Shown here: in pieces, positions 7,161 through 26,045 of the stretch
Position numbering within the stretch: the first letter of the stretch is position 1
Layout of the letters: each line of letters begins with the position of its first letter
Virus record (IMG/VR): IMGVR_UViG_3300045941_000256
Coordinates: 1-39,016 of that record
Direction: 5' to 3' (one strand)
From: a virus
Length of the DNA stretch: 39,016 nucleotides
Notes under the pieces: model-generated
The model's database searches: none
The model's input: only the letters and a program-made list of their open reading frames with translations
Told to the model about the DNA's origin: nothing
Made by a program: the position numbers and the translations under genes

Positions 7161-8849
7161 TCACGCGACGACCAGGTCCGGGTCTTCGGCGGGTTGCTCC
7201 GGCACGAGGCGCAGCTGCAGGTTCCACGCGATCGCGAGCGCGACGACGGGGTCGATCCGGCCGCGGCTCTTTTTCTTCGTCGGCAGCACGTTGTCCTTAT
7301 CGTCGCGCTTCACCACCGCGTTGCCCACCGCCCACTCGACGACGGGATCGCCGCCCGCGTCCACCTGGCCGGCGAGCACTTCCGCTTCGAGCGCCTTGCA
7401 GCCGCTCGACATGCCGGCAAACGTCTGCGACACCTCGAGGACCTGATCGATGTCAAAGCCATCCTCGGTCGTGAGCTGCACGACGAGTTGATCGGCGTGC
7501 CACGGGTCGAAGCCGACGCGCAGGATCGTCACGCGCGCGCGGAGCCCGGCCAGCGCGTCGCGAATCACGCGGTGGTCCACCCGGGTGCCTGGGACGGCGA
7601 TGAGCCAGCCGCCCTCGACCCAGACCGGATACGGCGCGCGATCGCGGTGCGCGCGATCCGCGAGCGTGTCGGCGGGCGTCCAGATCCAGCGGAGCACCGC
7701 CCAGCGCGGCCGCGCCGGCGTCGGCGGAAAGAGCGCCACCATCGCGCACAGATCCAACTTCGACGCGAGATCGATCCCCACGACGCAGGCCTCGCCGGCG
7801 ACGGCGTCGATGGTCCAGTCCGTCGTCTGGCCCGCGCGCCAGCCGTCGAGCGAGAGCCACGGCAGCAGCGCATTGACCCACAGATTCAGGTGCTTCTGTT
7901 TATAGGCGGCCGCCGCGGACGGCATGCCAATCGCCTTCCGGACTTTGTCCTTCAGATCCTCCGGGTTGACCGACACGCCGTAATTCGGATTGGCCTTGCG
8001 GGCGGTGGCCTCACTCGTCCACTCGTCCTCCGGATCCGCATGGGCAATGAACGCGAAGTAGCTCTCGTCGATGAGCGTGCGCTCAAGGATCTGACAGGCG
8101 TAATTGTGCTCGTCGCCGCCCGGCGACACCGGATCGGATCCCGCGGTCGTGATCTTGAAGATCAGCGGCTGCCGGCGCGCGCTGGTGGACGTTTCGAGCA
8201 CGTCGATGACATCCCGCTGTTTGTATTTCGCGAGCTCGTCGAGACTGATGAAATGGGCGTTGAGGCCATCGAGCGAATCGACGTCGGCCCCGAGCGGTTC
8301 GAGCTTTTGCGCGTAGAGATCGCGATGCAGGTTGCTCTGGAGGACCGCAATGCGCGAGCGCAGGCCGCTCGAACGCACCAGCCGCTTGCAATCGTTCCAG
8401 ACGATCTTCGCCTGCTCGCGTTTCGTCGCGGCCGTGTAGCCCTCCGCGCCGGGCTCCCCATCGAAGAATGTGAGATAGAGCGCGACGATCGAGTCTTCCA
8501 GAGATTTACCGTTCTTGCGCGGGAGTTCGTTGTAGGAGTTGCGGAAGCGTCGCAGGAGGGTGGCGATGTGGACCCAGCCGATGATCGATCCCAGCCGAAA
8601 CGCCTGGTGCGGCTGCCACTGCATGCACTGGCCGGCCCATTCGCCCTTGTAGTGCTTCAGACATTCGCCGAACCGCAGGAAGCGATCGGCGAGGTCGAGA
8701 TCGAGCCGATACGGAAACGCGCGCGTGGCCTCGCGCCGCCGATCGAACTGGTGCCGCTCGCACGCGAGCCCGTGATACTTCCCGGCCGGCACGCGGCCGC
8801 GCACGACGTCCTCGGCATAGGCGTCGATGACGTGCGTCGGTTTCCTCAC
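7161..8849 (-). CDS. terL: terminase large subunit
   Basis: 562 aa from GTG 8849, 6 bases after the small-subunit stop. The N-terminal ATPase has 'QPHQAFRLGSIIGW', the deviant Walker A 'ELPRKNGKS' and a Walker B-like 'AHFISLDELAKY'. The C-terminal RNase H-like nuclease has 'VVGIDLASKLDLCAMVALFP' (first acidic residue), 'GFDPWHADQLV' and a final 'DPVVALAIAWNL' with the last acidic position. This is the Terminase_1 / HK97-type packaging motor that pumps DNA through the portal and cuts it. Length is normal for the family. Confidence 0.96.
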   Translation of the reverse strand: MRKPTHVIDAYAEDVVRGRVPAGKYHGLACERHQFDRRREATRAFPYRLDLDLADRFLRFGECLKHYKGEWAGQCMQWQPHQAFRLGSIIGWVHIATLLRRFRNSYNELPRKNGKSLEDSIVALYLTFFDGEPGAEGYTAATKREQAKIVWNDCKRLVRSSGLRSRIAVLQSNLHRDLYAQKLEPLGADVDSLDGLNAHFISLDELAKYKQRDVIDVLETSTSARRQPLIFKITTAGSDPVSPGGDEHNYACQILERTLIDESYFAFIAHADPEDEWTSEATARKANPNYGVSVNPEDLKDKVRKAIGMPSAAAAYKQKHLNLWVNALLPWLSLDGWRAGQTTDWTIDAVAGEACVVGIDLASKLDLCAMVALFPPTPARPRWAVLRWIWTPADTLADRAHRDRAPYPVWVEGGWLIAVPGTRVDHRVIRDALAGLRARVTILRVGFDPWHADQLVVQLTTEDGFDIDQVLEVSQTFAGMSSGCKALEAEVLAGQVDAGGDPVVEWAVGNAVVKRDDKDNVLPTKKKSRGRIDPVVALAIAWNLQLRLVPEQPAEDPDLVVA

Positions 8850-8855
8850 ACGGGG

Positions 8856-9344
8856 TTAGTGGGCCGTGGGCCGGGGCGGCGGCGCGTCGAACTCCGTGAA
8901 CGGGTCGTCGGCCGCGGGCGGCGCCTTCACGCGCGAGCGGCTCGACGGCGTCAGCCCGAGCTCCGGCCAGAGCCGCGCGCACGCGGCGAGCGCCTTGGTC
9001 GCCACGCCGAGGTACGGATTCGCGATCGGGTAGCCGTTCGGCGTCTGGACGATCAAGCCGCTCGCCGCGACCCGATCGCTCGCCTGGAGATAGCGGGCCC
9101 ACTCCAGACAGAGCGCGATCAGGGCAGCCCGATCAGCGTCGGTGACGTGCCCGCCCTCGCGGAGCACGGGCGCGAGGCGTTGCCACTCGGCGACCGCCAC
9201 CGGCACCGCGGCGATCTCGCGGGGGACGTCGTCGAACGTCGCCGGGGGCGGTGGCAGCTGCGGTTCCTCGCGGTTGAACGCGCGCTTGCCGGGATTGCCG
9301 TCCAACTGCCGCCGCCAGGTGGGATGGGGTTTGCGGCCTCTCAC
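8856..9344 (-). CDS. terS: terminase small subunit, P27 family
   Basis: 162 aa from GTG 9344. The start 'RGRKPHPTWRRQLDGNPGKR' is the signature of P27-type small terminases, followed by 'EWQRLAPVLREGGHVTDADR' and 'ALCLEWARYLQA'. It recognises the packaging start and loads the large subunit. It overlaps the stop of the methyltransferase gene upstream (GTGA), so modification and packaging genes are co-translated. Confidence 0.93.
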   Translation of the reverse strand: MRGRKPHPTWRRQLDGNPGKRAFNREEPQLPPPPATFDDVPREIAAVPVAVAEWQRLAPVLREGGHVTDADRAALIALCLEWARYLQASDRVAASGLIVQTPNGYPIANPYLGVATKALAACARLWPELGLTPSSRSRVKAPPAADDPFTEFDAPPPRPTAH

Positions 9345-10681
9345 AGCGGCCGGGCCTTCTGCCCCGTAAACGCTTCCCAGCGATCGATCGCCACTTGGCA
9401 GTACTGCGGATCGATCTCGAGGCCGACGCAGCGACGGTGCAACCGCTCGCAGGCGATCATCGTCGAGCCGGCGCCGAAGAACGGCTCGAGCACGGTCTCG
9501 CCGGGGGCGGTGTAGTGCGCCAGGAAGGCCTGCGGCAGCGCCACCGGAAACGCCGCCGGATGCGCCTTGAAACTGCGGCGATCCAGATTGCTCTTCACGC
9601 CGGTGCGCTGCTCGCCGGCGGGAATGTCCGTGGTGGCGGCGGTTTGATGAATGCGAAACACGTCGTGCTCGAGCGTCGCGTCGCAGGCCTGCGGCGCGCC
9701 GAGCGCGAGCGCCGTGTCGGTGGCGAACACGTACACGAGCTCGTGAGTGTAGTTGCTCGACAGCCGCCGGACGCGCGGATCGTCCCGCGTCATGTGCCAC
9801 GTCGGGAGCGGCACGCCGACCTTGTGCCAGACGAACTGGCGCAGAAACGTCAGCCCAAGGTCCTCGAGGAGCACGCCGTGCCGGAAGGGACAGGTATGCG
9901 GCGCCACGCCGATGTTCCAGATGACGGCGCGCCCGGGCGCGAGCGCCGGGATCCACGCGCGCAGGATCGAATCGAGCCAGCCGAAGTACTCGGCCGGTGA
10001 GACGGGCCGATCGTCGTGGGCCCCGTAGCGGACGCCGACGTTGTAGGGCGGCGAGGTGATCAGCGCATCCGCCCGGGAGCCATCCAGCACGCGCGCCACG
10101 GCCGCGGGGTCTGCGCTGTCGCCGCACAGCAGCCGGTGCGCGCCGAGCTCGAAGCAGTCCCCCGAACGAATCCGCGTCGGCCGCGGCTCGGGCACGACAT
10201 CGGGATCGGTGTGTCCGTCGGCCGGCGCGTTGGGCCCCAGGAGCGCCGCGAGCTCGTCGTCGAAGAAGAACGGCCGCAAGTCCAAGCCGGCGATCGCGTC
10301 CGCCTGCAGCTGCGCGACGTTCCACTCGGCGAGCTCCGCGGTCCGGTTGTCGAACATCGCCAGATGGCGCTTCTGATCGGGCGTCAGACCCCGCCGGCGC
10401 ACGGCGATCACCTCGCTCCCATCGGCCTCGATCACCCGCACGCGCGTCAGGCCCGCGACCGTCGCCGCTTCCCGGACGCCGTTGCCCGCGAGCACCACGT
10501 TGTCTTCGTCGATCACGATCGAGCGCGCCGCGCCCACCGACTGGAGCGACGTGGCAATCGCCTGCAGGTTGCGCGCGTTGTACAGCCGGCGGTTCTGGGG
10601 ATCGGCCACCAGCGCGGCGAGCGACGTCGTGCCGTCGGTCGGCGGATCAGGGGCCGGCGCGGGTGCGCGTTTCCGACTCAT
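9341..10681 (-). CDS. ParB-like domain fused to DNA methyltransferase (SPPY type), copy 1
   Basis: 446 aa from ATG 10681 (MSRKRAPAPAPDPP). Residues 20-150 form a ParB/sulfiredoxin-like domain ('NVVLAGNGVREAATVAG' is the ParB box). Residues 165-440 are a beta-class methyltransferase: motif IV TSPPY (209-213), and motif I 'EPFFGAGSTMIACERL' near 399 followed by 'CVGLEIDPQYC'. SPPY at motif IV is more usual for N4-cytosine than for N6-adenine enzymes, so N4-cytosine modification is inferred. It probably modifies phage DNA against host restriction. It is a close tandem paralogue of the gene at 10788-12152. Confidence 0.9.
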   Translation of the reverse strand: MSRKRAPAPAPDPPTDGTTSLAALVADPQNRRLYNARNLQAIATSLQSVGAARSIVIDEDNVVLAGNGVREAATVAGLTRVRVIEADGSEVIAVRRRGLTPDQKRHLAMFDNRTAELAEWNVAQLQADAIAGLDLRPFFFDDELAALLGPNAPADGHTDPDVVPEPRPTRIRSGDCFELGAHRLLCGDSADPAAVARVLDGSRADALITSPPYNVGVRYGAHDDRPVSPAEYFGWLDSILRAWIPALAPGRAVIWNIGVAPHTCPFRHGVLLEDLGLTFLRQFVWHKVGVPLPTWHMTRDDPRVRRLSSNYTHELVYVFATDTALALGAPQACDATLEHDVFRIHQTAATTDIPAGEQRTGVKSNLDRRSFKAHPAAFPVALPQAFLAHYTAPGETVLEPFFGAGSTMIACERLHRRCVGLEIDPQYCQVAIDRWEAFTGQKARPL

Positions 10682-10743
10682 ACGCCAAGCCTCCAGCGCC
10701 AGGCGCGCAAGCGTTGACAGAGACACGCCGACCAGCGCCAGCG

Positions 10744-10777
10744 GTGGACGCAGGTATACGCGTGCGTACACGTCCAC
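10744..10777. promoter_or_regulatory. strong imperfect hairpin between the two methyltransferase genes
   Basis: GTGGACG at 10744-10750 pairs perfectly with CGTCCAC at 10771-10777. Inside, after a 4-base bulge (CAGG), TATACGC faces GCGTACA with one mismatch. The element lies in the 106-bp gap between the stop of copy 2 and the start of copy 1, one of the few non-coding gaps in the late operon. No T-run follows on the minus strand, so it is not a classic intrinsic terminator. Confidence 0.6.
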
Positions 10778-10787
10778 ACGTGGCGCT

Positions 10788-12152
10788 TCATGGCCGAACG
10801 GCCTCGCCCACTTTCACCGCCGTCTGGCCGGTGAACGATTCCCAGCGATCGATCGTGACCTGGCAATACGTGGGGCTGAGCTCAATCGCGCGGCACGATC
10901 GGCCGTACTGCTCGGCGGCGATCAGCGTCGTGCCGGATCCAAGGAACGGATCGTAGACCAGGTCACCCGGCTCGCCGTGATGACGGATCGCGCGCGCCAT
11001 GCATTCGATCGGCTTTTGCGTCCCGTGCGACGTCTCGAGGTCCTCGCCTTGTTTGTGCGACATGCCGACGGCGTCGATGTCCCAGACAGTGGACTGACTG
11101 CGATCGCCGCACCAGCGCGCCGCCTTCCCCTTCCGCACCGCGTACCAACACGGCTCGTGTTGCCAGTGATAGTGCCCGCGCGAAATGGCAAACGATCGCT
11201 TGCGCCAGATGATCTGCGAGCGAATCTCGAACGACGCCGCAATCAGCTGCTGATCGACGCTCGGTACCTCCGCGTCGTGAATCACCGCATGCCACACGTA
11301 GGCGACGTCGCCGCGGAACAGCGTGTAGGCAAGCGTCCAGTCCGATCGATCGTCGTTCGGGACCGTGCCGAGCCGCGTCGCCCCGAATCCGATGAAGCCC
11401 TTGTCGGCCGCGTCCTGACGCCACTGCGGATCGTAGTGCACGCCGTAGGGCGGATCCGTGACGAGCAAGAACGGCGGCGTCGGATCGCCTTCGGTCAGGC
11501 GCGCGACCTCACCGGCGACCGTCGCATCGCCGCAGAGCAGCCGATGCGAGCCGAGCGTGAAGAGATCGCCTGGCTGGATCTCCGTCGGCCGCGGGTCGGG
11601 GGCCGCATCCGGGTCGGTCTTGCCCGGCTTGGCCTGCGGCCCGAGTAGCGTGACGAGTTCGCTGGCGAAGAAGAACGGCTGCAGGTCGAGGCCCGCGATC
11701 GCGTCGGCTTGGAGCTGCGGCAGGTTCCACTCGGCCAATTCCGCCGAGCGATTGTCGAACATCGCGAGCCGCCGTTTCTGCTCGTCGGTAAGCCCGCGCC
11801 GCCGCACCGCGATCAGCTCGTCGCCGGCGGCCTCGATCACCCGGACGGTGGTGATGCCAGCTTCCGCGGCCGCGGCCGTGACGCCGTTGCCGGCCAGGAT
11901 GACGTTGTGCTCGTCGATGACGATCGACCGGGCGGCGCCCACCTGCTGCAGCGCGTCCACGATGACGCCGCGGTTGCGCGGCGTGTGGAGGCGGCGATTC
12001 TGCGGGTCCGGGACGAGCGACGTCGATTTGAGCCGCGTTTCGCCGATTATTGACGGGGACTCCGGGGGAGGCCCCTCGACCGGGCCTGGCGGGGGCGGCA
12101 GGGTGGCGGCACGGCGCGGCCGGGCGGCCGGCTGGCGCTTAGGCGTCCCCAT
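10788..12152 (-). CDS. ParB-like domain fused to DNA methyltransferase (DPPY type), copy 2
   Basis: 454 aa from ATG 12152, overlapping the 83-aa gene by 14 bases. A Pro/Arg-rich head (1-35) is followed by a ParB-like domain (42-170) nearly the same as in copy 1, including 'VGAARSIVIDE' and 'QLQADAIAGLDL'. The methyltransferase part has motif IV TDPPY (232-236) and motif I 'DPFLGSGTTLIAAEQYGRSC'. DPPY points to N6-adenine methylation. The middle target-recognition segment ('RKRSFAISRGHYHWQHEPCW') differs completely from copy 1, so the pair likely modifies two different sequences. Confidence 0.9.
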   Translation of the reverse strand: MGTPKRQPAARPRRAATLPPPPGPVEGPPPESPSIIGETRLKSTSLVPDPQNRRLHTPRNRGVIVDALQQVGAARSIVIDEHNVILAGNGVTAAAAEAGITTVRVIEAAGDELIAVRRRGLTDEQKRRLAMFDNRSAELAEWNLPQLQADAIAGLDLQPFFFASELVTLLGPQAKPGKTDPDAAPDPRPTEIQPGDLFTLGSHRLLCGDATVAGEVARLTEGDPTPPFLLVTDPPYGVHYDPQWRQDAADKGFIGFGATRLGTVPNDDRSDWTLAYTLFRGDVAYVWHAVIHDAEVPSVDQQLIAASFEIRSQIIWRKRSFAISRGHYHWQHEPCWYAVRKGKAARWCGDRSQSTVWDIDAVGMSHKQGEDLETSHGTQKPIECMARAIRHHGEPGDLVYDPFLGSGTTLIAAEQYGRSCRAIELSPTYCQVTIDRWESFTGQTAVKVGEAVRP

Positions 12153-12390
12153 CCGCGCCCTCGGCGCCCACCGCGCCACGTGAGGCCTTCTGGGGCGCCT
12201 TCTCGTCGAGCTTCTCGAGCACGACGACGACCGAGCGCCACTGCGTATACGGAAACGCGCTACGAGCCGCACGAAGGGCTGAAGTTGCCGCTTTTGTGGC
12301 GACCTGGGCGACGACCTCGCCCCGATAGGTCTTCACCGGCAGGGTGTCGTGTTCGAAGCTCACGGAGGCCCGATAGCGCATCTGGGTCAT
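12139..12390 (-). CDS. small unknown protein heading the late operon
   Basis: 83 aa starting MTQMRYRASVSFEHDTLPVK. It is the first gene leftward of attP, in front of the methyltransferase and terminase genes. A predicted alpha/beta segment ('TQWRSVVVVLEKLDEK') ends in a low-complexity Gly/Ala tail that overlaps the next gene. The start codon abuts a GC hairpin (12391-12405), and its 3' arm supplies the only G-rich ribosome site. Function is unknown. Confidence 0.6.
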   Translation of the reverse strand: MTQMRYRASVSFEHDTLPVKTYRGEVVAQVATKAATSALRAARSAFPYTQWRSVVVVLEKLDEKAPQKASRGAVGAEGADGDA

Positions 12391-12581: not shown

Positions 12582-12626
12582 TTCACACGCACGAGGTCAG
12601 TGGTTCGAGTCCACTAGCGCCCACCA
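12582..12626 (+). other. attP: attP core: 3' portion of a tRNA-Val (anticodon CAC)
   Basis: The stretch reads as tRNA positions 32-76. The anticodon loop TTCACAC has CAC at 34-36. Then come the 3' anticodon strand GCACG, variable loop AGGTC, a perfect T stem AGTGG/CCACT with TTCGAGT loop, the acceptor strand AGCGCCC and discriminator/tail ACCA. The upstream bases (GGTCC) do not pair with GCACG and no D arm is present, so it is a fragment, not a gene. Such 3' tRNA segments next to an integrase gene (12 bp away) are classic phage attachment cores that restore the host tRNA after integration. Confidence 0.88.
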
Positions 12627-12637
12627 CGTAACTCCTA

Positions 12638-14080
12638 CTAATTAACCGACTTACTGACGCCGCCTAGTTTAGCCGCTTTCCGCGCCGCGAGTTCGTCTGC
12701 AATTTTCTGCAAATTCTTCTGGGAATCGGGATGCGCGTCGACCCGCTGCGCCGCCTCCTGCGCCCAGCCGGCCTTCGGCCGGACGTAGCGCGTCGTGGTG
12801 GTCAGGCTGGCGTGGCCGAGCATCGCCTGTACCTCCGGCATCCGCATCCCGCGATCCACGTGGCTCGAGGCGCCCTCCCGCCGCAGGTCGCGCCACTGGA
12901 GGTCGTAGTCGCGCAGGTGCGTCCGGGCGGCCGGCGTCAGGCGGGCATGGGCGCCCGTGCGAATCTGGCCGGTGAACCCGGAGGCCTTCAGCCGGCAGGT
13001 CGTCCACTGCGTCGCCAGGCTGCGCCGCTTCTCGCCCGTGGTCGCGTCCCCGAACACGTAGCCGCTTGGATGGTGCGGTTTGCCGTCCGGCCCGATCGCG
13101 AGGAACTCGAGCACCACCCGCATGCGCGCCGTGATGGGCACCAGGCGGTCCTTGCGGGTTTTCGTGCCTTCCTGGGTCCGCGGGTTCTTGCGGCCGCGGA
13201 GCGTGATGACGTTCGCGTTGAAGTCCACCCGGCGCCAGCGCAGGTTGAGCAGCTCGCCCACGCGGAGCGTGGATTCCAGCGCGCCGATGATGCACAAGCG
13301 GAGCTCCGGCGACGCCGCCGCGAGCAACGCCTCTTCCTCGCCGGCTTCGAGTCGGCGATCGCGCCCCAGTTCCCCGTACTTCGCCACCACGCGATCGCCG
13401 GCCCGGTCGCGGAATGGGGACCGCTCGACGCCCGTCTCGCCGTGGTGCTGCGCCGCCCACTTGAACACCGTGGCCGCGCGATCACCGGTGCGGTTGGCCG
13501 AGGACGGACCGCCGACCGTGCGCGCATAGCTGTTTCGGAGCGTGCCTTTCTTCGACTTGCCGTTCGCCACCGTGGCCGTGCGCAGCGTGGCCTGGTGCTC
13601 GTAGAACTGGCGCACGTGATCGTCGGTCACCATCGCCGCTGGCATGGACCCGAGCCGCGTCGGGAGGCCCTGATACGTCACGAGAAAGGTGGCGAACTTG
13701 TCCCAGTTCGCACGCTCCCGCGGCAGCAGCGGGTCGCCGGTCAAGCGGTTCCGCGCCTGCGCGAAGTAGCGATCGGCCAGCGCATCGACGGTCATGCCGC
13801 CCGGATCGATATCGGGCACCGTGAGCGTCGGCCGGATGAGGGCCACCGTCCGCTTGCGCCGGGATACGAACGTGCCGGCATCGATCTCGCCGCGAATCGT
13901 ATTCGCGAGTTCCTGCGCGTCCCGGTACTCGAGGTGCCGCCCGGCCTCCTCGTCCAACGAGATCCGGACGCCGCGATAATTCACGTTGTACGCGTGCGGG
14001 CAGACGGGCCACTTTTTTCGGCTGCAGCCGCACACTTTCCGAAACCCGTTGTTTTTCTGATAGCGCCGTCGCGTGGTCAT
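12638..14080 (-). CDS. int: tyrosine integrase
   Basis: 480 aa from ATG 14080. An N-terminal Cys/His patch (C17, C19, C27, H29) and an arm-binding-type region precede an SAM-like core-binding domain (95-210). The catalytic domain has Arg273 ('LESTLRVGELLNLRW'), Lys310, Arg400, His423 ('MLGHASLTTTTRY') and nucleophile Tyr432. Box II reads 'LQWRDLRREGAS': the first His of H-x-x-R is replaced by Arg397, which is unusual. The enzyme recombines attP, directly downstream of its gene, with the host tRNA gene. It is coupled to the excisionase-like gene by ATGA. Confidence 0.93.
   Translation of the reverse strand: MTTRRRYQKNNGFRKVCGCSRKKWPVCPHAYNVNYRGVRISLDEEAGRHLEYRDAQELANTIRGEIDAGTFVSRRKRTVALIRPTLTVPDIDPGGMTVDALADRYFAQARNRLTGDPLLPRERANWDKFATFLVTYQGLPTRLGSMPAAMVTDDHVRQFYEHQATLRTATVANGKSKKGTLRNSYARTVGGPSSANRTGDRAATVFKWAAQHHGETGVERSPFRDRAGDRVVAKYGELGRDRRLEAGEEEALLAAASPELRLCIIGALESTLRVGELLNLRWRRVDFNANVITLRGRKNPRTQEGTKTRKDRLVPITARMRVVLEFLAIGPDGKPHHPSGYVFGDATTGEKRRSLATQWTTCRLKASGFTGQIRTGAHARLTPAARTHLRDYDLQWRDLRREGASSHVDRGMRMPEVQAMLGHASLTTTTRYVRPKAGWAQEAAQRVDAHPDSQKNLQKIADELAARKAAKLGGVSKSVN
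12697..12714. repeat. arm-type integrase site pair, right of attP (inside int 3' end)
   Basis: CTGCAATT (12697-12704) and CTGCAAAT (12707-12714) are 10 bp apart and in the same orientation as the pair at 12461-12478. They lie in the last codons of int. Core-to-site distances are about 110 bp on the left and 70 bp on the right, compatible with a P arm and a P' arm. Confidence 0.55.
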
Positions 14081-14328
14081 CGTCGCACTCCCCGCGCCAG
14101 CCGGCCCGGCGCCAGTTCGACGGGTGCCAACGATTCGATCCAGGCGTCGATCCATTCCTCCCGAAACCGATAGTCGCCGCGCCCGTCGATGATCGCCGCG
14201 CGCAGACGACCAGCCTTCACGGCGTCGTAGATCACGCGTTTACTGACGCGCGCCCGCGCGCAGGCTTCCTTCGTCGTCAACCAGATCGGCGGCGGTGGAA
14301 TGGCGGACGTGACGTCGGCGGTGTTCAT
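14077..14328 (-). CDS. excisionase-like HTH protein
   Basis: 83 aa starting MNTADVTSAIPPPPIWLTTK. 'LTTKEACARARVSKRVIYDAVKAGRLRAAII' is a MerR/HTH_17 winged helix, then 'GDYRFREEWIDAWI' completes the typical excisionase or binding-partner fold. It is followed directly by int (ATGA overlap), the position expected of a recombination directionality factor. It could also be a repressor of its own operon. Confidence 0.75.
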   Translation of the reverse strand: MNTADVTSAIPPPPIWLTTKEACARARVSKRVIYDAVKAGRLRAAIIDGRGDYRFREEWIDAWIESLAPVELAPGRLARGVRR

Positions 14329-23639: not shown

Positions 23640-24136
23640 GGAATGTCGTCCAGGTCAGGGGTGAATTCCGCAATGACGAGCGGCGGGTCAGGCGGAAAGC
23701 TCTTTACGTCGAACCAGCGAAATGCGGTCGCGCCATCCCCATTTCGCTGGTCGCCCCAGCGAATCGGAGATCGCAGCAGCAGGTGCGCGCGCCAGGCAGC
23801 GAGATCCAGCAGCATCCATCTGGTGATCGAATGCTCGTCGGTCGCGGCGTGGCCATAAAAGAACCAATCGCCGAAACCCTCGATGAACTTGCGCAACTCG
23901 GTCTTTGCACCGTTCTCGCGGGCGAGTCGAATCGTAAATTGGTGCCAGAAGTTCTCGTAACCAGGCCGACGAACGCGGCAGCCGATCATGAGGTCCCGTG
24001 CGCGAAGCAACACGAGGTCCGTAGCCAGGTGACGATCCTGCTCGAGCGATGCCGGCACCAGGAGGTAGGGTCCGATGATCCGCCGAATCTCGGGAATGAA
24101 GCGATCGCTGAACGCACGATCATGTCCGTACGACAT
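23633..24136 (-). CDS. conserved phage protein, possible nuclease-fold
   Basis: 167 aa from ATG 24136 (MSYGHDRAFSDRFIPEIRRI). 'DRHLATDLVLLRARDLMIGC-RVRR' and 'NGAKTELRKFIEGFGDWFFY' are conserved in a family seen in recombination modules. An Asp after a strand, then a second strand with Arg/Cys, recalls a PD-(D/E)XK-like core, but a proper E-x-K is missing, so enzymatic activity is doubtful. It is placed between MT-A70 and the exonuclease and overlaps both. Confidence 0.6.
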   Translation of the reverse strand: MSYGHDRAFSDRFIPEIRRIIGPYLLVPASLEQDRHLATDLVLLRARDLMIGCRVRRPGYENFWHQFTIRLARENGAKTELRKFIEGFGDWFFYGHAATDEHSITRWMLLDLAAWRAHLLLRSPIRWGDQRNGDGATAFRWFDVKSFPPDPPLVIAEFTPDLDDIPW

Positions 24137-25119
24137 CACGCCGCCTCGTTGCCCCAACCACGGAAGCCGTCGATCACCCGGCGGTTGAAGATGTCGATCC
24201 GGTGACCGCGCGTGACGCGACGAACGAGCTGATAGAAGGCCTCGGGTTTCTCGCTGTGCTTTCCGCGCGGGGCGTTGAAGCACGTTGGCAGCGCTTTGGT
24301 CGTCGTGAAGCGCGGACTCCCACGTCGCGCATAGAGGGCGAATTCGCAGTTGTATTGTGGCAAGCCGATCGGCTGAAACCCTCCAGGCTTGTGCCAGACG
24401 AACGTGCACACGTAACTGAGCATCCACTCGGTGAGGAGCCGAAAGGCCATCGGCAAGAACCGCTGCGTCGTCCAGAGCCAGACGTGGCAGTGCGCACGAG
24501 TCGGGAGTCGAAACTCGACGAGCTCGTCTTCGGTCATCGTGGGATAGTCGAATTTCGATTGGTAGGGACGCTTAACGCGCTCCTGCTTTTCCATCGGCCA
24601 GGGCGGGTCGATGACGATGACGTCGTAAAGGCGATCGAACTGCGCAGCCGTCTGGCGCGCGGTCAGCGCGTCGAGCTTATGGGCGTTGGCGTTGCGAAAG
24701 ACAACTTGCAGTAGGTGTGACTGGCTGACCTTCCGAGGGTCCGTTTGCTGAAGCAAGTAGGGATAAAGGGTGGCGTCCCACGAACGCGCGATCCGGCGGT
24801 AATTCGTGATCGTTCGGGGCGATATTGAAAATTCGGCAGCGCGTTGCCGAATTTCCTTCGGAGGTCGGCCTGGTCCGGGATCGCCAAGCAACTCGCCACG
24901 GCGCGCCTCGACTACCCGCAGCGCTTTCTGAAATTCCAATGACTCGCCGCCGAGGCTCTCGACGATATTGGCCATCGCCTGCAGCTGGCCTTCGTACTCG
25001 TTCAGCTGTGTCCAGGACTCACACGCCCCGATCGTCGGGCGCACGTGCGAGTCCCACCAACCCGCCGGCACCGGCGCCAGGCGAGGGTCAGGCACGATCA
25101 GACCGGTCTCAGCCGTCAT
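24136..25119 (-). CDS. MT-A70 family adenine methyltransferase
   Basis: 327 aa from ATG 25119 (MTAETGLIVPDPRL). The N-terminal 160 residues are helical with a putative HTH ('RQRAAEFSISPRTITNYRRI'). The catalytic part carries 'DVIVIDPPWPM' (DPPW 171-174) and later 'KPGGFQPIGLPQYNCEFALY', 'SEKPEAFYQLVRRVTRG' and 'HRIDIFNRR', the MT-A70 order. It transfers methyl to N6 of adenine in DNA. It is the third methyltransferase in the genome and the only one in the early operon, so it could protect replicating DNA or mark host DNA. Confidence 0.9.
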   Translation of the reverse strand: MTAETGLIVPDPRLAPVPAGWWDSHVRPTIGACESWTQLNEYEGQLQAMANIVESLGGESLEFQKALRVVEARRGELLGDPGPGRPPKEIRQRAAEFSISPRTITNYRRIARSWDATLYPYLLQQTDPRKVSQSHLLQVVFRNANAHKLDALTARQTAAQFDRLYDVIVIDPPWPMEKQERVKRPYQSKFDYPTMTEDELVEFRLPTRAHCHVWLWTTQRFLPMAFRLLTEWMLSYVCTFVWHKPGGFQPIGLPQYNCEFALYARRGSPRFTTTKALPTCFNAPRGKHSEKPEAFYQLVRRVTRGHRIDIFNRRVIDGFRGWGNEAA

Positions 25120-26045
25120 CCTTCCTGCCCGGGCTCGCGGGATCCGCCGCTGCCGAAGTGGATGTCGTCCGCCTTCAGCGGTGCCCCGTTCGCCGCCGGT
25201 GTCGGCGCGGCCGCCTTCTTCGTCTGGTCGGCGACCCACTGCTCCGCGTCGACGATGAACTTCTTGTCTTTGTGCTTCTCCCAGTTCGGGCAGCCGTAGA
25301 ACGCGCGCCGATCGCCCTTAGCGGGCCGGTACGAGCCTTTGCTGTTGCAGTGCGGGCAGACGGGCGGATCGACGTCGGGCGCGCGCTCGGAGCGGCCGCC
25401 GACCCGCTCGTCGGCGGATCCGAAGCCGCGACCCTTGCGGCACTGCTCGACGCGTTTGCTGGTGCCCTTCCAGGCGGCGGCGAGCTCGTCGACCGGCACG
25501 GTCTTCATGCCGGCGAGCTCGCGCGTGATGTTGCCGTCGAGATTCGCGCGCGCCGCTTTGCGAATGAGGAGATCAAGCTCGACGCCGGTCTTGCCTTTCA
25601 CGAAGTCGTCGGTGCTCGAGCGGCCGCCCTCGATCGCCTCGAGGACCTGGCGCGTGAGCTTGCAGCGGCCCGACCCCTCGATCAGGTAGTGAAAGACGCC
25701 GGGCTCGGCGCCGGTGACCTTCTCGGGTTTGCCGACGTCGAAGATTTCGATGCCCCAGAGATCGCGCACGCGATCGCAGCCGGCGTCCTGGAGATAGCCG
25801 ACGACTTGGCCGCCGTGCTCCTCCTTCGCCCTGAACAGCACCCAGTCCTCCGGGTGCGTCGCGCGGATGGACGCCAGGCGCAGCGTCGCGATCACTTGCA
25901 CGCGCGCTTCGATGACCTCGAGCGCTTCGCCTTTCAGCGCAGCGAGCTCGCTGAGCGTCGTGGGAATCTCAGGCCGCCGCAGCGCGATCGCGTCGGTGAT
26001 CTCGGGCTCGGTGTCGGGACGATCAGGATCAACATCAATGGGCAT
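25116..26045 (-). CDS. putative single-strand annealing protein with zinc ribbon
   Basis: 309 aa from ATG 26045 with GGGAGGA upstream. 'VQVIATLRLASIRATHPEDW' and 'VGYLQDAGCDRVRDLWGIEI' are followed by 'FVKGKTGVELDLLIRKAARA' and 'NLDGNITRELAGMKTVPVDE'. The last part is reminiscent of the Erf/Sak/Rad52-type annealing families, but the match is weak by eye. The C-terminus has a zinc finger of topoisomerase style ('CPHCNSKGSYRP', then 'YGCPNWEKHKDKK'). First large gene of the early operon, with the exonuclease close by; that context supports recombination. Confidence 0.6.
   Translation of the reverse strand: MPIDVDPDRPDTEPEITDAIALRRPEIPTTLSELAALKGEALEVIEARVQVIATLRLASIRATHPEDWVLFRAKEEHGGQVVGYLQDAGCDRVRDLWGIEIFDVGKPEKVTGAEPGVFHYLIEGSGRCKLTRQVLEAIEGGRSSTDDFVKGKTGVELDLLIRKAARANLDGNITRELAGMKTVPVDELAAAWKGTSKRVEQCRKGRGFGSADERVGGRSERAPDVDPPVCPHCNSKGSYRPAKGDRRAFYGCPNWEKHKDKKFIVDAEQWVADQTKKAAAPTPAANGAPLKADDIHFGSGGSREPGQEG

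Follow-up and report, generated by a model that had tools for sequence, protein, structure and literature searches.

Tandem ParB–methyltransferase fusions at a phage packaging locus: a likely anti-restriction module with exchangeable specificity cassettes

Introduction

The multispecific m5C methyltransferases of Bacillus phages and the HsdS proteins of type I restriction–modification systems keep a constant frame around an exchangeable target-recognition region. In the phage fusions described here, by contrast, motif IV, which is catalytic, travels with the exchangeable cassette, and the base chemistry appears to switch too.

Fusions of a ParB-like domain to a methyltransferase have already been reported upstream of terminase genes, with 36 cases known from Paracoccus prophages (PMC6536676). 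That ParB-like proteins steer modification during packaging has likewise been proposed in print, in that paper and in earlier work that it cites. As PMC6536676 describes the ParB–Tls locus, modification genes lie between a ParB-like gene and terL, an arrangement shared with our locus, and the proposal of modification at packaging is based on gene neighbourhood, to which our analysis adds recombination breakpoints and a conflict between head and core trees. The published phrog_498 fusions (PMC6536676) and those studied here agree in architecture, in lying upstream of the terminase and in their m6A/m4C methyltransferase class. Our locus differs in having two tandem copies with differing motif IV, heads that lack the NTP-binding arginine, and relatives in which the cassette has been exchanged.

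Biochemical precedents are mixed. A ParB–methyltransferase from Bacillus cereus yields m6A in E. coli, with no known site, and gave no protection against the restriction enzymes tried (PMC3459991). Work on ParB-CTPase fold proteins, whose fold is common to the heads of our fusions, lists N6_N4 methyltransferase fusions as common in phages; changing the GxxR arginine to alanine abolished nucleotide binding in the binders tested, and 17 of 28 purified fold members showed no nucleotide binding (PMC12704722). That arginine is absent throughout the clade of heads considered below.

Two adjacent fusions upstream of the terminase genes

The DNA analysed (the window) spans 39,016 bases and represents a complete IMG/VR virus record. 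Transcription on its minus strand runs from a small ORF through gene B, gene A, terS and terL to the portal, protease and major capsid genes. As the initial annotation had proposed, two adjacent, co-directional fusions of a ParB-like head to a methyltransferase, gene A (9341–10777, 478 residues) and gene B (10788–12272, an ORF of 494 residues), lie on this strand directly upstream of terS/terL. The start at 12152 given there for gene B is an in-frame ATG (residue 41) and the likely one, although the ORF itself reaches 12272. The small, unassigned ORF (12139–12390, 83 residues) runs across the ATG of B, 10 nt separate the end of B from gene A, and the end of A extends into the P27-family terS gene (about 8856–9371), which is followed by terL (7161–8849); we therefore regard these minus-strand genes as one tight cluster. 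Between gene B and a tyrosine integrase gene (12638–14155, minus strand), the 3' end of a tRNA gene (GGTTCGAGTCC ... CCACCA) was read by eye on the plus strand at 12590–12628; ARAGORN found no whole tRNA. It is probably the attachment site attP, and its place beside the integrase, with phage genes flanking both sides, suggests that the record represents an excised or circular form.

Both fusions are built from three parts. In gene A, a ParB-like head (residues 46–218; 10124–10642) is followed by a variable core (residues 221–422; 9512–10117) containing motif IV as SPPY (residues 242–245; 10043–10054), and then by a C-terminal tail (EPFFGAGST ... RWEAFTGQKA; 9353–9511). Gene B has the corresponding head (residues 76–248; 11529–12047), core (residues 250–432; 10977–11525), motif IV as DPPY (residues 273–276; 11445–11456) and tail (DPFLGSGTT ... 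RWESFTGQTA; 10818–10976), all on the minus strand.

Taken singly, none of these parts is unusual, and all belong to known families. In gene A (E = 2e-67) as in gene B (E = 4e-96), the match to phrog_498 (ParB plus methyltransferase) extends over head and enzyme; both genes match PF01555, and both show the order of a beta-class amino methyltransferase, with motif IV (D/S)PPY, the target-recognition region and a C-terminal motif I FxGxG. AlphaFold predicts head and enzyme with confidence over most of their length (mean pLDDT 83.5 and 78.3 for the A and B models), and the nearest solved folds include CcrM, PvuII and RsrI. The structures closest to A are the cytosine-N4 enzyme 8s9m and then CcrM, in a list that mixes N4-cytosine and N6-adenine enzymes; those closest to B are the adenine enzyme M1.HpyAVI, then TTHA0409 and M.BceJIV, again in a list that mixes both chemistries. 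Motif IV and these neighbours together make it plausible that A is a putative N4-cytosine and B a putative N6-adenine methyltransferase, SPPY and DPPY not being strict predictors of the base.

Old divergence and conflicting domain histories

The ParB-like parts of A and B had been described as almost identical. Their heads are in fact just 64–69% identical as protein (58–84% per 25-residue block over A 48–220), their third codon positions agree at 42–64%, and dS is about 0.93. With a BLASTP E value of 4e-97 between the two proteins, the likeness is not due to chance. The core falls to 17–30% identity per 25-residue block (A 221–422; dS about 1.1), in keeping with the earlier observation that the two enzymes differ in motif IV (SPPY versus DPPY) and throughout the target-recognition segment. 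The C-terminal tail is common to both, as claimed (44–80% per block over the last ~55 residues), but its RWE-FTG signature recurs across the whole protein family and is not peculiar to this pair. By these comparisons, the divergence of the two copies is old. The closest relative of gene B lies in another record (L084; head 91% and enzyme 96% identical).

Domain-wise phylogeny, one of the checks that the initial annotation had named, shows that head and enzyme have followed different paths. The head tree places both A and B in a clade with good support (ultrafast bootstrap 99, SH-aLRT 97, 19 rows), where at least six types occur together: SPPYNV, DPPYGV, SPPYGQQR, DPPYGMGK, SPPYSNLR and enzyme-less heads. 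In the methyltransferase tree, A groups with SPPYNV enzymes, including those of L101 and L112, whose heads differ strongly, and B groups with DPPYGV enzymes, including those of L009 and L012, whose heads also differ. Forcing the head of B together with the L009 and L012 heads was rejected (AU p = 2e-7).

These results favour one half of the proposed history, duplication followed by domain replacement. Replacement is backed by the tree conflict and by the swaps in relatives described below; duplication is not, since a sister relationship of the A and B heads is not rejected but gains no support from the tree, and the phylogeny does not separate duplication from import. We give a little less than an even chance to the alternative that the two fusions arrived by separate imports from related phages with heads of the same lineage, with no duplication in the lineage of this phage. 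The pair bears no sign of a recent tandem duplication, given its head identity and dS, and identity within the locus (69%) is not above that to the heads of other phages (66–70%), a pattern repeated in most other tandem pairs. The AU test also tolerates a single clade of A-type heads (p = 0.08–0.11). Set against separate import, A and B heads as sisters fit equally well (p = 0.585, with slightly higher likelihood). Homogenisation between tandem copies was considered and rejected, as heads sharing a locus generally resemble each other no more than they resemble heads of other loci.

A conserved position with varied partner enzymes

The placement of the fusions just before terS/terL holds for the window, and the gene order is conserved in relatives. 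A phrog_9 terL match was found in 21 of the 38 related records searched, two of the matches at fusion loci being weak, and terL lies downstream on the same strand in all 18 fusion loci with such a match (within 0.75 kb in 14 and within 3.7 kb in the rest). The window and its relatives thus share with ParB–Tls loci a ParB-like and a modification gene directly upstream of the terminase. Tandem arrangements recur: there are 12 non-redundant pairs of neighbouring fusions, 9 of which combine DPPY with SPPY; the loci were collected with these classes as queries, and we therefore claim no preference for mixed pairs. One record carries three ParB–methyltransferase fusions in a row (L060, 3–4143; SPPY, DPPY, DPPY). 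Neither head nor core identity follows the terminase closely (r = 0.26 and 0.14, both weak), and the terminase itself is apparently mosaic.

Heads of the same lineage also occur without an enzyme, and are then followed by a gene for a TET-associated glycosyltransferase (L088, L089, L208, L216, L218 and L256), for Mom (L204, L205 and L211) or for a pyridoxal-phosphate enzyme (L203). The stand-alone head of L211 is 90% identical to the head of a methyltransferase fusion (L189).

This range of partners bears on an alternative that we consider unlikely, namely that methylation serves as a packaging or gene-control mark, for example by tagging DNA for the terminase, and not mainly as protection from restriction. 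It would account for the conserved position adjoining terS/terL, which is also seen in PMC6536676, but expression timing alone could produce that position, and it is hard to reconcile one specific packaging signal with enzymes as different as Mom and glycosyltransferases taking the same place.

The large terminase subunits of L084 (3230–5941) and L096 (8958–11375) contain an in-frame LAGLIDADG insert of ~340 residues, probably an intein, at the same site in the ATPase domain; in the window TerL that site, at ~8507, is empty.

Cassette exchange in relatives

The window itself shows old divergence only, in the form of shared ends around different cores, so we infer swaps there from relatives, in which near-identical flanks surround unrelated cores. 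We assembled 66 non-redundant fusions from a search with window-like heads and from earlier searches, and compared cores pairwise, because single-linkage clustering had merged nearly all of them. Mean head identity was the same for fusions of the same and of different motif IV class (52.9% versus 52.7%), whereas mean core identity was 34.6% versus 28.7%. Several pairs have heads that are 90–99% identical and cores at 24–40%; in some, with heads at 98–99% and flanking DNA at 90–97% identity, the methyltransferase cores are nonetheless unrelated, and SPPY/DPPY switches are among them.

DNA alignments locate the edges of the exchanged segment. Between L102 and L179, the DNA is 95.4% identical over 4.3 kb until the alignment ends 96 nt before motif IV (SPPYGQQR versus DPPYGVNV), and likeness resumes at ~90% 43 nt before the stop codon, leaving the last 13 residues the same. 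Between L242 and L113, identity is 95.8% until 11 nt into motif IV, and resumes 137 nt before the stop at 97.4% over 3.6 kb. Six more comparisons break between 64 nt before and 14 nt after motif IV and rejoin 95–196 nt before the stop, so that, taken together, the first breakpoint lies anywhere from about 100 nt ahead of motif IV to 14 nt past it, and the second 40–200 nt short of the stop. L095 has a DPPY core and L097–L099 have an SPPY core, with heads 97.8% identical and the downstream DNA 99.6% identical over 7.5 kb. A further group (L223, L225, L227, L233, L235, L236, L238 and L239), with heads at 82–98% and varied DPPY cores 27–38% identical, is apparently a hot spot of cassette exchange.

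Domain replacement is therefore strongly supported by these sequences, more directly in the relatives than in the window, and what survives of the initial annotation, in enlarged form, is modularity: a constant head and tail around an exchangeable cassette for chemistry and target. A literature search of open-licence papers found no account of this exchange, and a search of genome contigs returned a single distant relative. It is quite improbable that ordinary mosaicism, or chimerism of the metagenome assemblies, at conserved domains accounts for the apparent swaps and leaves the cassette no particular role: every example does come from metagenome contigs, the neighbouring terminase genes appear mosaic as well and the single DPPY allele (L095) is frameshifted, but several separate groups combine 90–99% identical heads with differing cores, the SPPY allele recurs in three assemblies (L097–L099), and both ORFs are intact in L102/L179 and in L242/L113.

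A ParB-like head without the nucleotide-binding arginine

The heads belong to the ParB/Srx fold: mixed profiles that include them match Spo0J, ParB and Noc structures, although a profile of window-like heads alone matched no solved structure. In the register to the Spo0J GERR motif, which was obtained through the mixed profile, GNGV takes the place of GxxR (GERR/GHGR) in both A and B, with valine where the arginine of Box II, a mark of functional NTP binders, would stand. At this position, V, T, L or I stands in each of the 100 window-like heads sampled, against R in 86 of the 104 more distant ones. Window-like heads also share an insertion of about ten residues after the P motif (consensus around EADG-E-IAVRR). 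The literature search, again limited to open-licence papers, found no account of arginine loss in this clade.

With the arginine missing from all window-like heads, a canonical CTP or ATP switch is unlikely. The suggestion that a ParB-like module steers both enzymes fares accordingly, losing its nucleotide switch and keeping a possible adaptor role. Although the fold is shared and a bacterial SAM-methyltransferase fusion binds ATP (PMC12704722), the uniform loss of the arginine makes it very unlikely that the head is a DNA clamp which depends on nucleotide and brings the methyltransferases to parS-like sites of the phage genome; nor was a ParA gene noticed.

A model for exchangeable phage DNA modification

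We consider it reasonably probable that A and B are ParB-fused beta-class amino methyltransferases with a swappable cassette, which place two different protective marks on phage DNA around packaging. The lineage-typical head would act as an adaptor to DNA or to a partner, the cassette would hold motif IV and the target-recognition region, and the family-typical tail would carry the SAM-binding motif I. Where sequence is conserved, in the head or linker and the tail or else in the neighbouring terminase genes, homologous recombination could then swap the cassette, changing base chemistry and target while head and locus stay. The marks, probably N6-methyladenine made by B and N4-methylcytosine made by A, may be set around packaging and would protect the DNA against restriction in the next host, a role suggested by analogy. 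The locus is, on this reading, likely to be an adaptor-headed anti-restriction modification module with exchangeable specificity cassettes.

More tentatively, and as a possibility that we rate below an even chance, these fusions may form a specificity-exchange system. A ParB-derived head that has ceased to bind nucleotide would stay constant, as would the tail, while the cassette between them at the terminase locus is swapped; each phage would have one or two such slots and change its m6A- or m4C-type chemistry by recombination. Heads of this lineage would also work with Mom and glycosyltransferase enzymes, there in the form of a separate adaptor protein. If true, this would explain how phages keep up with varied host restriction, because one swap alters the base chemistry and probably the target; it would also mean that the nucleotide switch was lost across a large clade of ParB-like heads, which became a plain adaptor for several DNA-modification chemistries. 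The natural allele pairs L102/L179 and L242/L113 make the cassette idea directly testable.

The phage carries a further DNA methyltransferase gene, of the MT-A70 kind, on the minus strand at window positions 24136–25239, which brings its total to at least three.
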